NCBI GenBank assembly: GCA_903838995.1
Contig: CAIMAP010000202.1
Span: 1 to 35,823, forward strand
Reading direction: 5' to 3'
DNA: 35,823 bases
Source of the DNA: an uncultured bacterium
GTDB taxonomy: Bacteria > Bacteroidota > Bacteroidia > Sphingobacteriales > Sphingobacteriaceae
Part shown: positions 15,941 through 22,907 of the stretch, piece after piece
Numbering within the stretch: the stretch's first letter is position 1
Layout of the letters: each line of letters opens with the position of its first letter
Notes under the pieces: generated by a model
Told to the model about the DNA's origin: nothing
Databases searched by the model: none
The model's input: the letters and a program-made list of their open reading frames with translations, nothing else
Translations under genes and position numbers: made by a program

Positions 15941-16853
15941 ACAGTTATCGGAGTTTAGCCCTATCAAAAATGCCGTTGTTACAACAGGCACTTTTGATGG
16001 CGTTCATATTGGTCACCAAAAAATCATTCATCGCGTAAAAGAAATTGCCCATCAAATTGCTGGAGAAAGCGTCATCATTACCTTTCATCCACATCCAAGA
16101 TTGGTTTTATTTCCAGAAGACAATCATTTAAAAATCCTCAATACGCTTCCAGAAAAAATAAAATTACTGGAAGCATCCGGAATTGATCATTTAATTATTA
16201 TTCCATTTACGAAAGAGTTTTCGAGATTGAGTTCGGTCGATTTTATTCAACAAATAATAGTAGATCAAATTGGTACTAAAAAATTAGTTATTGGTTATGA
16301 CCATCATTTTGGTAAAAATAGAGAAGGCAGTTTTGAGCATTTAAAACATTACGGTCCATCATACGGTTTCGAAGTAGAAGAAATTCCTAAACAAGATATC
16401 AACGATGTTGGGGTGAGTTCTACAAAAATTAGAACGGCTTTAGCACAACACCAAATTGCGATTGCAAATCAATATTTAGGTTATCCTTATGCCATTGAAG
16501 GCATTGTTGTCAAAGGCGACCAAATAGGCCGCAGCATTGGCTTTCCAACGGCCAATATACAAATACAAGAAAGCCATAAATTGATTCCAGCTGATGGCAT
16601 TTATGCAGTTCATGTTCAATGGCAATCCCAAACATACAAGGGCATGTTATATATTGGTGATCGGCCAACCGTTCAAGGAAGTAAAAAAGTAATAGAGGTA
16701 AATATTTTTGAATTCGATCAAGAAATTTACGACGAAGAAATTCAAGTTAAATTAATTCAATACATCAGGGGCGACCAACATTTTGATTCGCTAGCTGCGT
16801 TAACTTTGGCTATTCAGCAAGACGAAATTAATTGCAGAAAAGCGTTAAGCTAA
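15927..16853 (+). CDS. ribF: Bifunctional riboflavin kinase / FAD synthetase
   Basis: Makes FMN from riboflavin and then FAD. The 308-residue protein has an N-terminal FAD-synthetase (nucleotidyltransferase) domain with TGTFDGVHIGHQKII and, near residue 160, the VSSTKIRTAL motif. The C-terminal kinase domain carries GDQIGRSIGFPTANI (about residues 196-210) and YDEEIQVKLIQYIRGDQHF. It overlaps truB at its start by 14 bases and the convergent uvrA at its end by 9 bases. RibBA, the first enzyme of the pathway, is coded 15 kb away. No FMN riboswitch is seen before either gene. Confidence 0.95.
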   Translation: MKVYKQLSEFSPIKNAVVTTGTFDGVHIGHQKIIHRVKEIAHQIAGESVIITFHPHPRLVLFPEDNHLKILNTLPEKIKLLEASGIDHLIIIPFTKEFSRLSSVDFIQQIIVDQIGTKKLVIGYDHHFGKNREGSFEHLKHYGPSYGFEVEEIPKQDINDVGVSSTKIRTALAQHQIAIANQYLGYPYAIEGIVVKGDQIGRSIGFPTANIQIQESHKLIPADGIYAVHVQWQSQTYKGMLYIGDRPTVQGSKKVIEVNIFEFDQEIYDEEIQVKLIQYIRGDQHFDSLAALTLAIQQDEINCRKALS

Positions 16854-19661
16854 TTTTTCTAATAAGAAAGGTCCTGTGATCGAGTCTTTACACTGAGCCA
16901 ATGCTTCTGGCGTTCCTTCAAAAACTAAATTTCCGCCTTTATCCCCGCCTGCAGGACCAATATCTATGACCCAATCGGCCGATTTAACAACTTCTAAATT
17001 ATGTTCGATTACAATAATAGAATTACCCTGTGCAATTAAAGCATCGAAAGATTTCAATAACTTTTTAATATCATGAAAATGAAGACCCGTAGTTGGTTCG
17101 TCAAAAATAAATAAGGTATGGGTTTGCGAATTACCTTTTAATAAAAAAGATGCTAATTTAATACGCTGTGCTTCCCCACCCGATAGCGTGTTAGAAGATT
17201 GTCCTAAATGAACATAACCTAAACCAACTTCTGCTAATGGAATAATTCTATTTAGAATTTTCTTTTCTTGTGCAAAAAATTCAATGGCTTCGTCGATGGT
17301 TAAATCTAAAATTTCTGAAATATTTTTCTCGAGATAGGTGACTGCTAATACTTCTTGTTTAAATCTTTTTCCATGGCACGATTCACAGGTTAGAAATATA
17401 TCTGCCATAAACTGCATTTCTACTCGCACTTCGCCTTCGCCTTGACACAACTCACATCGTCCCCCATCCACATTAAAAGAAAAATGCGAAGGCTTCATTC
17501 CTGCTGCTTTTGCACTGGCTTGACTCGCAAATAAATTTCGAATTTCGTCGTAAGCTTTTACATAGGTAACTGGATTCGATCTAGAAGATTTTCCAATTGG
17601 ATTTTGATCGACCATTTCAATTTGTTGCACTGATTTATAATCTCCTTCTAAGGAATTGAATAAACCCGTTTGATCGACGGTATAACTTCCAATTGCTTTT
17701 TGCAAAGCAGGCACTAAAATTCTTTTGACTAAACTGGTTTTTCCAGATCCACTCACGCCCGTTACCGCGGTTAAAGTATGTAATGGAAATTTAACATCTA
17801 TGTTTTTTAAATTATTTTCTCTTGCCCCTTTGATCATGACAAACTCCGACCATTTCCTTCTTTGTTTAGGTACTTCAATACTTTCCTGCCCTCCTAAATA
17901 TTTTCCAGTCCAACTTTTTTTATCTTTTACCAAAGCACTGTATTGGCCTTCAAAAATAATTTCGCCACCATTTCGACCCGCATCAGGACCAATGTCAATA
18001 ATATAATCGGCCGCTTTCATTACTTCTTCGTCGTGCTCTACCACAATGACCGTATTACCCGTATCGCGCAAAGATTCCATGACAGAAATTAATTTCTGGG
18101 TGTCTTTGGCATGCAGCCCAATACTTGGTTCATCTAAAATATATAAAGAGCCTACCAAACTACTACCCAAAGAAGTAGCTAAATTAATTCGCTGTGACTC
18201 CCCACCCGAAAGGGTATTAGACAAACGGTTTAAGGTTAAATAACCTAAACCAACATCTTGTAAATAGCGTAATCTATTTTTGATTTCTGCTACAATTCTT
18301 TTCGCAATTTGTGCATCGTGCGTATTTAATTTCAAGGAATCGAAAAATTGAGCAATTGTACTTATTGGCATCAATACTAAATCTGTAATAGATTTTTCCG
18401 CAACTTTTACATTATTAGCATCTGGCCTTAACCTACTACCCTTACAATCGGGGCAATTAGTTTTGCCTCTATACCTCGATAACATTACCCTATATTGAAT
18501 CTTATAGGTTTGCTCTTCTAATTGTTTAAAGAAATCATTTAAACCCGAAAAATATTTATTACCAGTCCAAAGCAATTGCTGTTCGGCTTGCGTTAATTGA
18601 AAATATGAGCGATGAATTGGAAAATCAAATTTGATAGAATGCTTGATAAATACATCTAACCATTCTTTCATTTTTTCTCCACGCCAAGGTGCAATGGCCC
18701 CTTCAAAAACAGATTTACTTTTATCTGGCACCACTAAGTCTTCGTCGATGCCAATTATTTTTCCATAACCTTCGCAACGCTTACAGGCGCCATAAGGATT
18801 ATTGAAACTAAAAAAATTGGCAGAAGGTTCTTCAAATATAATTCCATCTAATTCAAAGCGATCGCAAAATTGATGCGTGCTGTTTTTATCTGCTATAGTT
18901 AATTCGATGATGCAATCGCCATGTCCTTCAAAAAATGCAGTTTGAATAGAGTCTGCTAACCTCGAATGTGTTTCTTCTTCTTGATTCAACACAATTCTAT
19001 CAATCAGAATAGCTAAAGCTCCTGCTTTTTTGATACTGGTATTTTTAACCGTTTTATCTTCAATTAAATCTTCAATTTTAAAAATAGACTCATTAAATCG
19101 GACACGCTTATAGCCTTTTTGTAAAAGTATGGCCAACTCTTCTTTTAGGTTTCTGTCTTTTAGTATGGGTAGTGGCGCAAAAACAACACAAAGTGTTTCG
19201 TCGGCTTGGGTATTTAAAAAGGCCATCACCGAATCGACCGTGTCTCTTTTTACCTCTTGACCCGAAACTGGCGAAAAGGTTCTACCCACCCTTGCAAAAA
19301 GCAATTTTAAATAATCGTAAATTTCTGTAGATGTACCAACCGTCGATCGGGGATTATTGGCGGTTACTTTTTGTTCAATGGCAATAGCAGGCGCAATTCC
19401 TTTTATATAATCGACCTCTGGCTTATTCATTCTGCCCAAAAATTGCCTAGCATAAGAAGACAAGCTCTCGACATACCTTCTTTGCCCCTCGGCATATAAA
19501 GTATCAAAGGCTAAAGAAGACTTACCAGATCCAGATAGGCCTGTAATAACCACTAATTGGTTTTTAGGGATATTAACAGAAATGTTCTTTAAATTATGAA
19601 CCCTAGCCCCTTTAATCAGTATAAAATCTTTTACATCTAGTTGATTGGCTGTTTTCGACAT
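16845..19661 (-). CDS. uvrA: Excinuclease ABC subunit A
   Basis: DNA-damage recognition ATPase of nucleotide excision repair; works as a dimer with UvrB. From ATG 19661 the protein is 938 residues, close to the 940 of E. coli. It has two ABC modules: Walker A GLSGSGKS (41-48) and GVSGSGKTS, signatures LSGGESQRINLA and LSGGEAQRIKLA, and Walker B-type ILDEPSIGLH and IFDEPTTGLH. The zinc-binding clusters are CKRCEGYG, CPDCKG, CELCQGEG and CESCHG. The frame can be read back to ATG 19697, but a TAGCTTTG promoter element lies inside that extension and MSKTANQ fits better as N-terminus. Its 3' end overlaps ribF by 9 bases. Confidence 0.96.
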   Translation of the reverse strand: MSKTANQLDVKDFILIKGARVHNLKNISVNIPKNQLVVITGLSGSGKSSLAFDTLYAEGQRRYVESLSSYARQFLGRMNKPEVDYIKGIAPAIAIEQKVTANNPRSTVGTSTEIYDYLKLLFARVGRTFSPVSGQEVKRDTVDSVMAFLNTQADETLCVVFAPLPILKDRNLKEELAILLQKGYKRVRFNESIFKIEDLIEDKTVKNTSIKKAGALAILIDRIVLNQEEETHSRLADSIQTAFFEGHGDCIIELTIADKNSTHQFCDRFELDGIIFEEPSANFFSFNNPYGACKRCEGYGKIIGIDEDLVVPDKSKSVFEGAIAPWRGEKMKEWLDVFIKHSIKFDFPIHRSYFQLTQAEQQLLWTGNKYFSGLNDFFKQLEEQTYKIQYRVMLSRYRGKTNCPDCKGSRLRPDANNVKVAEKSITDLVLMPISTIAQFFDSLKLNTHDAQIAKRIVAEIKNRLRYLQDVGLGYLTLNRLSNTLSGGESQRINLATSLGSSLVGSLYILDEPSIGLHAKDTQKLISVMESLRDTGNTVIVVEHDEEVMKAADYIIDIGPDAGRNGGEIIFEGQYSALVKDKKSWTGKYLGGQESIEVPKQRRKWSEFVMIKGARENNLKNIDVKFPLHTLTAVTGVSGSGKTSLVKRILVPALQKAIGSYTVDQTGLFNSLEGDYKSVQQIEMVDQNPIGKSSRSNPVTYVKAYDEIRNLFASQASAKAAGMKPSHFSFNVDGGRCELCQGEGEVRVEMQFMADIFLTCESCHGKRFKQEVLAVTYLEKNISEILDLTIDEAIEFFAQEKKILNRIIPLAEVGLGYVHLGQSSNTLSGGEAQRIKLASFLLKGNSQTHTLFIFDEPTTGLHFHDIKKLLKSFDALIAQGNSIIVIEHNLEVVKSADWVIDIGPAGGDKGGNLVFEGTPEALAQCKDSITGPFLLEKLA

Positions 19662-19678
19662 GCTAATTATTATGCTTG

Positions 19679-19686
19679 CAAAGCTA
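19679..19686 (-). promoter_or_regulatory. Candidate -7 element for uvrA
   Basis: On the minus strand TAGCTTTG matches TANNTTTG and ends 17 bases before ATG 19661. It falls inside the longer reading frame starting at 19697, so it decides for the shorter start. No SOS-type operator was recognised near it. Confidence 0.5.
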
Positions 19687-19697
19687 AAATAACCCAA

Positions 19698-19892
19698 GCA
19701 AAAAATAGCTTGTTTTACCTTTCTTTTGTAACATATTTAATATTTTTTCAAAAAAATTTTGATTTTAAACTCAATATCCGTTTATTCGTTTAAATAATAA
19801 TTCAAAATAAACCTAAAAAACCAAAAGGAGGACCATATATAGATTAAAATTCTACACTAATTAACATTTAAATTTTAACGGGAGGAACCATT
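19698..19892 (+). promoter_or_regulatory. Sigma-factor leader with two ribosome-binding-like sequences
   Basis: This AT-rich stretch carries AAAGGAGGA at 19824-19832 and GGGAGGA at 19880-19886, the latter 6 bases before the sigma-factor ATG. The contexts look like copies: GGAGGACCATATATAG against GGAGGAACCATTATGA. After the first there is no ATG; an ATA-started frame of nine codons runs 19835-19864. No exact TANNTTTG promoter was found. The leader could control translation of the sigma factor. Confidence 0.45.
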
Positions 19893-20480
19893 ATGAACCG
19901 TAAATTAATTAGTGACCAAGAATTAGTCAATCTGTATATTCATGGAGATGAATCTGCTTTAGGCGAATTATTAACCCGTCACAAAACAAAAATCTATTCT
20001 TCGATTAACTTATTAGTGAAAGATTCTTTTTTAGCAGAAGATATCTTCCAAGACACTTTTATCAAAGTTATAAAAACCCTTAAAGGTGGTAAATACAACG
20101 AAGAAGGAAAATTTCTTCCTTGGGTAATTCGCATTGCCCATAATTTAGTGATAGACCACTTTAGAAAAGTAAAGCGTACGCCTGTGATTACCAACAGCGA
20201 TGGCTTTGACATCTTTGATGTAATTGGCATTGCCGATGAAAACATAGAAGACAAAATGTTGAGAGCACAAAATCATCAAGATTTAAGAGCTTTTATTCAA
20301 TTGCTTCCAGAAGAACAAAAAGAGGTGTTAATTATGAGGCATTACGCTGATTTGAGTTTCAAAGAAATTGCCGATTTAACGGGTGTAAGTATCAATACCG
20401 CATTAGGCAGAATGCGCTATGCATTAAACAATTTGCGAAAAATGATAGGCGATAAAGAAGTAAGTTTTAAACAACAATAA
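19893..20480 (+). CDS. ECF-type RNA polymerase sigma-70 family factor
   Basis: Directs RNA polymerase to a set of promoters; the regulon is not visible here. The 195-residue protein has sigma region 2 at about 25-95 (LLTRHKTKIYSSINLLVKDS, AEDIFQDTFIKVI, FLPWVIRIAHNLVIDHFRK) and region 4 at about 130-185 (LLPEEQKEVLIMRHYADLSF then KEIADLTGVSINTALGRMRYA, the helix-turn-helix). There is no region 1.1 or 3, so it is of the ECF/group 4 size. It has an unusually strong ribosome-binding site. No anti-sigma gene with a membrane helix is adjacent, but a 72-residue acidic protein follows. FecR/SusCD-type neighbours are absent, so it is not of the nutrient-uptake ECF class. Confidence 0.93.
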   Translation: MNRKLISDQELVNLYIHGDESALGELLTRHKTKIYSSINLLVKDSFLAEDIFQDTFIKVIKTLKGGKYNEEGKFLPWVIRIAHNLVIDHFRKVKRTPVITNSDGFDIFDVIGIADENIEDKMLRAQNHQDLRAFIQLLPEEQKEVLIMRHYADLSFKEIADLTGVSINTALGRMRYALNNLRKMIGDKEVSFKQQ

Positions 20481-20504
20481 TTTTTTTTTAGGTTTATATG
20501 GTTT

Positions 20505-20539
20505 AAATAGGCTTTTCAAAAGAAAGCCTATTTTTTTTT
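20505..20539 (+). terminator. Intrinsic terminator between sigma factor and small partner gene
   Basis: Arms AAATAGGCTTT (20505-20515) and AAAGCCTATTT (20523-20533) pair over 11 bp around a 7-base loop, and the T-run continues to 20539. It should end or attenuate sigma-factor transcription before the small gene at 20604. Confidence 0.85.
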
Positions 20540-20603
20540 ATCCCATTAGAAAATATCTACACCTTTTCTGCGTTTAATTCCCATAAACATAAAAAAACGG
20601 TCT

Positions 20604-20822
20604 ATGGTAGAAACCTTTACTCAAAATGAACTAATAATGGCCATTTATCACGAATTATCAAGCGATGAAATGGTTGGATTAGAAACCCAATTAAATACTA
20701 ATTTCGAAATAGAAGATAATTTCGATCATTTGCAGGAGATGAAAACAGCATTAGATCAATTAAAAGTAAGTCCAAGGCAAGCTATTATTGATCAAATTCT
20801 TGCATTTTCTAAATCTATTTAA
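20604..20822 (+). CDS. Small acidic protein, possible anti-sigma-like partner
   Basis: A 72-residue, helix-rich, acidic protein with no signal, membrane helix or cysteine. The sequence runs ELIMAIYHELSSDEMVGLE, then LNTNFEIEDNFDHLQEMKTA, then SPRQAIIDQILAFSKSI. The Y-x-E-L-S-x-x-E-x-x-x-L-E pattern resembles the first helices of anti-sigma domains, but the usual zinc-binding His and Cys residues are missing. I recall similar short proteins following ECF genes in Bacteroidota. It is 124 bases downstream of the sigma gene, beyond a terminator, and has its own strong terminator after it. The functional link is inferred from position and pattern only. It is flanked by real terminators, so I regard it as a true gene. 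Confidence 0.7.
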   Translation: MVETFTQNELIMAIYHELSSDEMVGLETQLNTNFEIEDNFDHLQEMKTALDQLKVSPRQAIIDQILAFSKSI

Positions 20823-20841
20823 TTGTTTCCATTCATTATTT

Positions 20842-20878
20842 AACCCGACTAGCAAATACTAGTCGGGTTTTTGTTTTT
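20842..20878 (+). terminator. Intrinsic terminator after the small partner gene
   Basis: An 11-bp perfect stem, AACCCGACTAG (20842-20852) with CTAGTCGGGTT (20859-20869), has a CAAATA loop and is followed by two T-rich runs. It closes the sigma/partner transcript and insulates nth. Confidence 0.92.
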
Positions 20879-20946
20879 GAAATTTACCAACATTTTTTGT
20901 GGATATCATTTTTTCTAAAACGCTACTAGAACTGCTACTTTAGCGT

Positions 20947-21597
20947 ATGACAATTAAAGAAAGATACGAAGGTGTTTTGGAGATTTTTGAAAAAAAAATG
21001 CCCTCTGCAGAAACAGAATTAAGTTATCGTAACCCCTTCGAATTACTAGTCGCAGTAATACTTTCGGCCCAATGTACCGACAAAAGAGTAAACCTAATTA
21101 CTCCAAAATTATTTGAAATTTATCCAGATGTAAACAGCTTAGCTACTGCAACAGTTGCCGATGTTTTTGCTATTATTCGCAGCATCAGTTATCCAAATAA
21201 TAAAGCCAAACATTTAATTGGCATGGCAAATATTTTACTAAGCGCCTTTAATGGGATCGTCCCTTCTGCAACCAAAGAATTGCAAAGACTTCCGGGTGTG
21301 GGTCGAAAAACAGCGAATGTTATTTCCTCCGTCATTTTTAATATGCCAACCATGGCAGTAGATACCCATGTGTTTAGGGTTTCGGCAAGAATCGGATTAA
21401 CGAGAAATGCTAAAACGCCTTTAGCCACCGAAAAGCAGTTAATCAAGCATATTCCTAAAAGTAAAGTTCACATTGCCCACCATTGGCTCATTTTACATGG
21501 AAGATATACTTGTACCGCCCGCAGTCCAAAATGCGAAAACTGCGATTTAATAGCTTTTTGCAAGTATTTTAAAACAAATGGATTGAAATTAGCTTAA
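20947..21597 (+). CDS. nth: Endonuclease III, DNA glycosylase/AP lyase
   Basis: Removes oxidised pyrimidines and cuts at the abasic site in base-excision repair. The 216-residue protein has the HhH-GPD fold: LLVAVILSAQCTDKRVN near the start, the hairpin LQRLPGVGRKTANV with catalytic K121, and D139 in AVDTHVFRVSARIG. The 4Fe-4S cluster loop near the C-terminus has the exact C-x6-C-x2-C-x5-C spacing (CTARSPKCENCDLIAFC). All catalytic residues are present and the length is normal. It stands alone between a terminator and a 275-base gap before recA. A TACTTTAG sequence just before the ATG is an imperfect promoter element. Confidence 0.96.
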   Translation: MTIKERYEGVLEIFEKKMPSAETELSYRNPFELLVAVILSAQCTDKRVNLITPKLFEIYPDVNSLATATVADVFAIIRSISYPNNKAKHLIGMANILLSAFNGIVPSATKELQRLPGVGRKTANVISSVIFNMPTMAVDTHVFRVSARIGLTRNAKTPLATEKQLIKHIPKSKVHIAHHWLILHGRYTCTARSPKCENCDLIAFCKYFKTNGLKLA

Positions 21598-21872
21598 TTA
21601 CTATATATAATCTTTAAAAAATGCAATTGTGGCTAGCCTAAAATTGACTGATATTTGATTATTGAATGAAGGTAAATTTTACTAAAAATAATAGAATTGA
21701 GGCAATATTGAAAAATGTGGAAAATTATTTTTTAATAAAATACTTTGTTTAATTGGTTTAATTAGGCTTTTTTAGATTTGTTAGCAATAAAAGTTGCAGA
21801 TTACAAAAAATGCTATTATTTTTAGCAAAAATTAAAATGAAAAAACAGAAAACAGAACAAAAAACAGAACAA
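21598..21872 (+). promoter_or_regulatory. recA upstream region
   Basis: This AT-rich 275-base gap holds a palindrome GTAAA-T-TTTAC (21672-21682), tandem nine-base repeats GTTTAATTG/GTTTAATTA (21747-21764), and an exact -7 element TAGATTTG (21773-21780). Three copies of an ACAGAA-type repeat (about 21843-21872) sit just before the chosen recA ATG. No E. coli or Bacillus LexA box was recognised. I see no gene here. Confidence 0.4.
21773..21780 (+). promoter_or_regulatory. Candidate -7 element for recA
   Basis: TAGATTTG matches TANNTTTG and lies 8 bases after tandem nine-base repeats. It implies a leader of roughly 85 bases to ATG 21873. A weaker TATTTTTA further down could act too. Confidence 0.45.
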
Positions 21873-22907
21873 ATGGCAGATAACAAAGAAAAGTTAAAGG
21901 CATTACAAATGACCTTAGACAAACTAGAAAAAACCTACGGAAAAGGAACCATCATGAAATTAGGTGATTCTGTAATTGAACCATTGGAAGCAATTTCAAC
22001 AGGTTCATTAGGACTAGACATCGCTTTAGGTATTAATGGTCTTCCGAAAGGCAGAGTAATAGAAATTTATGGACCAGAATCTTCTGGTAAAACAACTTTG
22101 GCTTTACATGCTATTGCAGAATCTCAGAAAAAAGGTGGCGTGGCTGCATTCATAGATGCAGAGCATGCATTCGATAAATTTTATGCTAAAAAATTAGGCG
22201 TTGATGTAGAAAATTTATTGATCTCTCAACCAGACAATGGCGAACAAGCATTAGAAATTGCAGACAACTTGATTCGCTCTGGCGCGATCGATATTATCGT
22301 GATTGACTCGGTTGCAGCATTGGTTCCTAAAAGCGAAATCGAAGGCGAAATGGGCGATTCGAAAATGGGATTGCATGCACGCTTAATGTCACAAGCTTTA
22401 AGAAAATTAACAGGTACTATTAGCAAAACAGGCTGTTGCTGTATATTCATTAATCAATTAAGAGAAAAAATTGGTGTCATGTTCGGAAACCCTGAAACCA
22501 CTACAGGCGGTAACGCTTTGAAGTTTTATGCTTCGGTTCGTTTAGACATCAGAAGAACTGGTCAAATTAAAGATGGAGATGAAGTGATCGGAAATAGAGT
22601 GAAAGTGAAAGTCGTAAAGAACAAAGTTGCACCTCCCTTCCGTATTGCAGAATTTGATGTGATGTATGGAAAAGGCATATCAAAATCTGGTGAGATTGTA
22701 GACATCGGAGTAGATTTTGAAATCGTAAAAAAAGCAGGTTCTTGGTTTAGTTATGGTGATACCAAATTAGGACAAGGCAGAGATGCTGTTAAACAATTAA
22801 TTGAAGACAATCCAGAATTAGCAGAAGAATTAGAAGGTAAAATCAAGGCGATTCTATCAAAAGTAGAACTACCTACAGAAGCACCTTCTGAAGACGCTAA
22901 GGAATAA
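21873..22907 (+). CDS. recA: Recombinase RecA
   Basis: Forms ATP-dependent filaments on single-stranded DNA for homologous recombination and the SOS signal. From ATG 21873 the protein is 344 residues and starts [12 protein letters not shown]. Walker [10 protein letters not shown] then begins at residue 67, essentially as in E. coli, which supports this start. In-frame ATGs at 21810 and 21837 would add 21 or 12 residues, the latter a K/Q/T/E repeat. Other motifs are [11 protein letters not shown], Walker [39 protein letters not shown], and [19 protein letters not shown] in the DNA-binding L2 region. An acidic tail ends the protein. A clear terminator follows. Confidence 0.96.

Follow-up and report, generated by a model that had tools for sequence, protein, structure and literature searches.

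A 72-residue protein that accompanies an ECF sigma factor in Bacteroidia is probably a stand-alone, zinc-independent anti-sigma domain

The window, by which we mean the whole stretch of DNA analyzed here (35,823 nucleotides), is an entire contig of the 2-Mb genome of an uncultured member of the Sphingobacteriaceae. Its forward strand carries an ECF sigma factor gene (19893..20480), whose 195-residue product matches Pfam Sigma70_r2 (region 2, E 3.5e-13) and Sigma70_r4_2 (region 4, E 4.4e-11) and has its nearest named relatives in Pedobacter, Mucilaginibacter and other Sphingobacteriaceae. Behind it on the same strand lies a 72-residue ORF (20604..20822) that encodes a putative soluble, zinc-less anti-sigma domain protein, an assignment based on co-occurrence, fold matches and a joint model. 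A sequence-only reading of this DNA had called both the sigma gene and the acidic 72-residue ORF, and both are present. Further along the forward strand are nth, encoding endonuclease III (20947..21597, Pfam HhH-GPD), and recA (21810..22907, Pfam RecA). On the reverse strand, and divergent from the sigma gene, is uvrA (16845..19697), an ORF named by eye with a likely ATG at 19661. The same reading had remarked on the absence of SusCD, FecR and other uptake genes nearby, and indeed none of these families was found among the 25 window ORFs scanned with Pfam. The order of divergent uvrA, sigma gene and then small gene, nth and recA (16845-22907) is common across much of the family, and uvrA lies upstream of the sigma gene in most relatives.

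Several candidate signals accompany these genes on the forward strand. Upstream of the sigma gene there is an element of the form TAT[AC]G-N-CTAC (19838..19855), a putative leader or promoter recognized by its conservation relative to shuffled sequences, and a Shine-Dalgarno-like stretch, GGGAGGAACC, precedes the sigma start (19880..19889), in a phylum in which Shine-Dalgarno sequences are said not to drive initiation. A consensus scan located terminator-like hairpins between the sigma and small genes (20505..20533) and 3' of the small gene (20842..20869), and a putative ECF-type promoter of the small gene, AATA-N15-CGTT (20552..20574), was recognized from motif conservation and a held-out set of loci. 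The two genes had been described as a pair, and they are adjacent, but the small gene of the window, bounded by the two hairpins and preceded by its own promoter, is probably a separate transcription unit. An Rfam scan gave no match at the gathering score. A weak match to RsaOG at 20754-20873 (34.2 bits, gathering 50, E 0.0033), which covers the 3' end of the small gene together with the terminator, probably arises by chance from the hairpin.

The small protein is acidic, with (D+E)-(K+R) equal to 9 (a value obtained from locus L007, whose protein is identical), and by eye the window copy contains neither cysteine nor a hydrophobic stretch. It had been said to lack zinc ligands and a membrane helix. 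Both descriptions hold: HxxxCxxC is found in 0 of 67 sigma-linked relatives, and the ORF ends after its fourth predicted helix with no hydrophobic helix. It has no Pfam match, its sole NCBIfam match (E 0.098) is meaningless, and none of the curated Pfam or NCBIfam anti-sigma models recognizes it. Pfam likewise returned nothing meaningful for 19 full-length members of the family or for four further relatives, and a profile search of the PDB by sequence gave no match. The ORF is not a product of chance: four of the five genomes from the same genus retain it, with 85-100% identity, and the fifth (G004), in which no small gene was found, also has an incomplete sigma match (residues 1-121). Full-length members share F-T-x-x-D-[LI]-[IL]-x-Y-x-Y-x-E-[TL]-S-x-x-E, a middle helix and then P-x(4-5)-[IV]-x-x-I-L-x-Y-S. 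The C-terminal motif of the diverged family across the class is P-x(4-5)-[IV]-x-x-I-L-x-[YF]-S-K, and many relatives, in which the N-terminal helices are eroded, retain mainly this motif, so that the full helix bundle is evidently not required everywhere.

The presence of the sigma factor was called at E <= 1e-30 in 60 relatives and in a class-wide sample of 149 Bacteroidia genomes that overlaps the first set; it was found in 55 and 132 of these, respectively. A full-length BLAST search with the small protein detected it in only 12 of the 60 relatives, a value that by itself would resemble a gene that does not track its neighbor. When the ORFs behind the sigma gene were read, small ORFs with a common C-terminus were found in many more relatives than these, and a profile (A1) raised the count to 48, with both genes in 48 genomes, sigma only in 7, the small gene only in 0 and neither in 5. 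Over the 149 genomes, profile A3 at a cut-off of E <= 0.05, for which about 7 false matches are expected, placed both genes in 108, sigma only in 24, the small gene only in 0 and neither in 17. Thus the small family is present in 108 of 132 sigma-positive genomes and in 0 of 17 sigma-negative ones (Fisher p 1.6e-11, which overstates independence because the genomes are related), and 24 of the 132 have no small-family match at this cut-off. A diverged small gene in the sigma-less genomes could be missed because sigma-adjacent genes made up most of the profile. The sequence-only reading had held that a small gene which did not follow the sigma gene in relatives would speak against a partnership; what we observe is that it does follow. 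It is moreover encoded with an ECF sigma gene, as is characteristic of the class I anti-sigma domain (ASDI).

These counts also bear on the idea that the small protein is an anti-sigma domain for another ECF sigma factor of the cell. The fold data described below do not name a partner, and in some genomes the small gene is unlinked from the sigma gene, as this idea would allow. Yet the small gene is missing from every genome without this particular sigma factor, even though a first look gave sigma-like candidates in all 17, and we regard a different ECF partner as highly improbable. A mirror-tree comparison of the sigma and small proteins yielded a correlation of only 0.43 (67 pairs, without controls) and was uninformative. 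So was residue covariation, assessed by mutual information over 65 pairs (effective number 43), the top pairs reflecting differences in N-terminal length between lineages.

In 79 of the 108 genomes with both genes, the small gene is downstream of the sigma gene, on the same strand and within 700 nt. It lies directly before the orthologous nth in 27, 15 of these occupying both positions; another 15 small genes are near a second type of nth, and 16 are in none of these positions. The two nth types in Bacteroidia are about 50-72% or 35-42% identical to the window nth, and the second is often found tail-to-tail behind the small gene. Among 67 selected linked loci, the small gene overlaps the end of the sigma gene in 8, which include Spirosoma, Emticicia, Dyadobacter and relatives, and it starts 48-375 nt behind in the rest. 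Inspection of 80 named sigma loci showed an adjoining small gene in 39 and none in 41. For 28 of those 41 the whole genome was searched, and in 24 the small family was present elsewhere (a second, weaker match in one genome was dropped), including 9 of 10 loci labelled Chitinophagaceae or close kin (L105-L143, with L114 outside the count).

Of these 24 unlinked small genes, 20 are followed by nth within 500 nt, and an earlier set of loci from which the sigma gene had moved away gave 11 of 13. Such constancy is what one would expect if the small gene belonged to nth, and hence to base-excision repair, and stood near the sigma gene only through inherited gene order. Against this, nth of any type, which served as a control, is present in 143 of 149 genomes, including most of those without the small gene, and the orthologous nth and the small gene are not associated (both genes in 73 genomes, the small gene only in 35, nth only in 33 and neither in 8; p 0.16). 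Furthermore, where nth lies elsewhere the small gene often still adjoins the sigma gene, and genomes that possess the small gene and nth without this sigma factor number 0 of 149. A dedicated partnership with nth is on these grounds very improbable. The gene order, together with the persistence of the small gene beside nth after the sigma gene has moved, hints at a connection with DNA repair.

Upstream of the small gene the pattern AATA-N13-20-CGTT, which was derived from the same 70 sequences, is found in 66 of 70 relatives, with a spacer of 15 in 51 and of 16 in 13; dinucleotide shuffles of these upstream regions carried it in 2.9 of 70 on average, and never in more than 8. The equivalent counts for the control genes were 0 of 47 for nth, 0 of 9 for recA and 1 of 57 for uvrA (1 of 113 together), and for the sigma gene 7 of 132. 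In a held-out set of small genes found later, all of them unlinked from sigma, the pattern is present in 18 of 24. At loci where the small gene overlaps the sigma gene, an AATAT...CTACGTTA-like element was noted by eye before the sigma gene instead. The simplest reading of these sequences is that this sigma factor, or another ECF, drives the small gene, which would amount to negative feedback. A regulon search of the window's genome with AAAATA-N15-16-CGTTWA returned 10 matches, compared with 10 for the reversed control, and so gave no excess; only the window's small gene and three others among the 10 have an ORF of at least 50 residues that starts within 130 nt, and no regulon could be seen. 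The four bases immediately 5' of the small gene's ATG are GCTT, GCCT, GCGT or GCAT in 52 of 70 relatives and GTCT in the window.

The element upstream of the sigma gene, TAT[AC]G-N6-13-[CT]TAC, is present in 95 of 133 regions as against a shuffle mean of 2.5 and a maximum of 5, and it precedes only 1 of 13 unlinked small genes. It occurs also in some loci where uvrA does not adjoin. Its conservation would suit either a promoter or an mRNA leader. The CTAC segment is complementary to a GTAG just before the start codon (for example in L062, L115, L047 and L127), and the potential pairing extends to 8-10 bp in several Chitinophagaceae loci, with only 4 pairs in the window. Over 106 leaders the mean pairing score was 12.56, compared with 11.14 when permuted (sd 0.22, maximum 11.79), a difference that is uncorrected for relatedness. 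A Shine-Dalgarno match of at least 5 nt precedes the sigma gene in 35 of 132 relatives and 4 of 149 nth, recA and uvrA genes together (p 3.8e-9). The description of the sigma factor as strongly translated rests on the Shine-Dalgarno-like GGGAGG at 19880; an effect of such sequences in Bacteroidia is not established by these data, and part of the text of PMC9723704 states that they do not drive initiation in this phylum.

AlphaFold2 was applied to the 72-residue protein alone, with an alignment of 19 rows (the protein and 18 relatives), and predicted helices at residues 7-14, 20-32, 34-55 and 59-71 (mean pLDDT 76, pTM 0.50). In this model a three-helix bundle is followed, after a linker, by a fourth helix, which is the layout of the ASDI. 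The sequence-only reading had seen the helix pattern of the first part of an anti-sigma domain; the resemblance to such a domain stands, but the protein appears to be a whole four-helix class I domain and not the first part only. A Foldseek search of the whole PDB at E <= 10 returned 11 matches, of which 9 are anti-sigma chains (RslA, MucA and ChrR), each of them weak when taken individually (E 5.2-9.7). With VIA-align, RslA ranked first (Z 6.2, rmsd 4.7, 62 aligned), with MucA (Z 5.2, rmsd 2.6-2.7, 53-54 aligned), ChrR (Z 4.6, rmsd 9.0, 70 aligned) and RseA (Z 3.5, rmsd 4.0, 49 aligned) also above the best other protein (Z 2.7); since a Z below 8 may mean merely a common arrangement, we place weight on the selectivity of this list.

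The sigma and small ORFs share a reading frame, so that for a joint model they were read through as one chain with the natural linker, the stop codons being replaced by glycine. The same four helices were predicted, with pLDDT 80-89 in helices 1-3 and 96-97 in helix 4. For helix 4 the value had been 65-74 in the protein alone, although the alignments differ (19 and 33 rows) and this may account for part of the rise; the pTM of the joint model was 0.50. That a short terminal helix reaches 96-97 suggests that helix 4 is packed on the sigma factor in the joint model, as judged from pLDDT. An interface between the two proteins, which the sequence-only reading had proposed to seek by structure prediction, is therefore likely in the predicted complex, given the confident placement of the fourth helix. 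The best PDB matches of the fused chain are sigma chains, and the anti-sigma-bound AlgU-MucA, sigmaE-RseA and SigW-RsiW are among the first.

In families f40 (three genomes) and f2 (G037 and G119), the gene directly behind the sigma gene encodes a longer protein of 173-194 residues, in which the same domain is followed by a hydrophobic helix and a short tail; bare and membrane-anchored forms therefore occur beside the same sigma factor. Four of these proteins were scored for hydropathy, with 19-residue maxima of 1.6-2.2, and G037 was judged by eye. In a third f2 genome, G151, the corresponding frame has 96 residues and lacks the hydrophobic helix. None of the membrane-anchored homologues has a Pfam match. 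For one f40 protein the only match is to the NCBIfam "anti-sigma factor" model NF052375, at E 2.3e-4 and 21 bits, below the curated cut-off of 100.

These homologues help to distinguish inhibition from a positive role. A small protein that bound the sigma factor as a chaperone or activator, stabilizing it or aiding its delivery to RNA polymerase, would produce the same co-occurrence and joint-model data, would be lost together with the sigma factor in the same way, and would agree with the lack of a sensor domain. The fold matches, however, are anti-sigma chains, and the same-locus homologues have the layout of a membrane-anchored anti-sigma factor, one of them weakly matching the NCBIfam anti-sigma model; we consider a helping role improbable. 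A further alternative is that in the window's lineage the small gene is what is left of a membrane-anchored anti-sigma factor in decay, as the erosion of the N-terminal helices down to the C-terminal motif in many relatives might suggest. But the ORF persists, motif included, in four of five genomes of the genus at the high identity given above, the small-gene promoter is conserved, and the window copy models as the full four-helix form, all of which make decay extremely improbable.

Taken together, gene tracking, fold matches and the joint model are best explained by the anti-sigma role that the sequence-only reading had suggested. We think it likely that the 72-residue protein acts in the cytoplasm as a stand-alone class I anti-sigma domain, independent of zinc, and that it binds and inactivates the ECF sigma factor encoded just upstream. 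The computed bases of this conclusion are the pairing, the resemblance in fold, the confidence of the joint model, the membrane-anchored homologues and the conservation of the promoter; from them we infer inhibition. In the mechanism that we envisage, helices 1-3 would make the bundle and helix 4, which carries the P-x(4-5)-[IV]-x-x-I-L-x-[YF]-S-K motif, would lie on the sigma factor; its probable site there is region 2, to which RNA polymerase binds, by analogy with the RseA, RskA, ChrR and MucA complexes. The ECF-type promoter of the small gene would probably be read by the same sigma factor, which would thereby raise the level of its own inhibitor. Because the small protein has no sensor domain, release would probably occur through its degradation or through the balance of synthesis.

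A more specific account can be built on this. The sigma factor would be kept in check by a bare, sensor-less domain that was freed from the membrane in evolution and is expressed from an ECF promoter that the sigma factor itself reads; the signal would enter either as the small protein is turned over or by way of the conserved mRNA leader of the sigma gene; and the position of the small gene before nth and recA, beside uvrA, would reflect a DNA-repair regulon outside the classical SOS response. As a whole we find this account unlikely.

The preferred reading, a bare class I domain, may be compared with known systems. It resembles the class I domains of RseA, RskA, ChrR, RslA, MucA and RsiW in its predicted four-helix layout, its top fold matches, its pairing with an ECF sigma factor and the probable contact through helix 4. 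In class I anti-sigma factors, according to a section of PMC7406223, the partner of helix 4 is sigma 2 and that of helix 1 is sigma 4. The small protein differs from these in having 72 residues, no sensor, no membrane helix and very low sequence similarity. With the ChrR-type zinc anti-sigma factors (ZAS), the usual soluble kind, it would share solubility, a cytoplasmic location and a three-helix bundle plus helix 4, but it lacks the zinc signature, as do the 67 relatives noted above, and also a cupin or other sensor domain. The class II protein CnrY is described in a portion of PMC7406223 as very short, with two helices that cover sigma 4 and sigma 2. The small protein is very short too, and reduced relatives with mainly the last helix may approach the same economy; yet the window protein models as four helices, and CnrY is absent among the matches listed. 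Reo/EcfO of Bacteroides and Dma1/Das1 are likewise pairs of an ECF and an anti-sigma factor in Bacteroidia. EcfO/Reo was rejected as the identity of the present pair, since Reo spans the inner and outer membranes (stated in part of PMC13114119) and the small protein is soluble, with no hydrophobic helix.

A soluble partner had been expected to depart from the usual membrane arrangement. In this respect the expectation was too strong, as about 35% of class I anti-sigma factors are predicted to be soluble and the zinc motif is absent from about 44% (figures given in one part of PMC7406223), and soluble anti-sigma factors for ECF sigma factors are listed in a portion of the review PMC8999054; what is unusual is the bare, sensor-less domain and its near-universal pairing in Bacteroidia. 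Our searches of the open-licence literature found no description of this sigma factor and small protein as a pair. Soluble and zinc-less class I anti-sigma factors are known; on our best reading, the small protein is a bare, sensor-less domain of this class for a near-core ECF sigma factor of the Bacteroidia. Parts of PMC7406223 state that about 6% of Bacteroidetes ECF sigma factors adjoin a class I anti-sigma factor and note a Bacteroidetes RpoE-like group without a conserved one. If our reading is correct, a tiny partner missed by family models, accompanying most copies of a sigma factor that 132 of the 149 genomes carry, would explain part of this anti-sigma gap in the Bacteroidetes, and the family would allow membrane-anchored, soluble and strongly reduced anti-sigma factors to be set side by side while the sigma factor stays the same.
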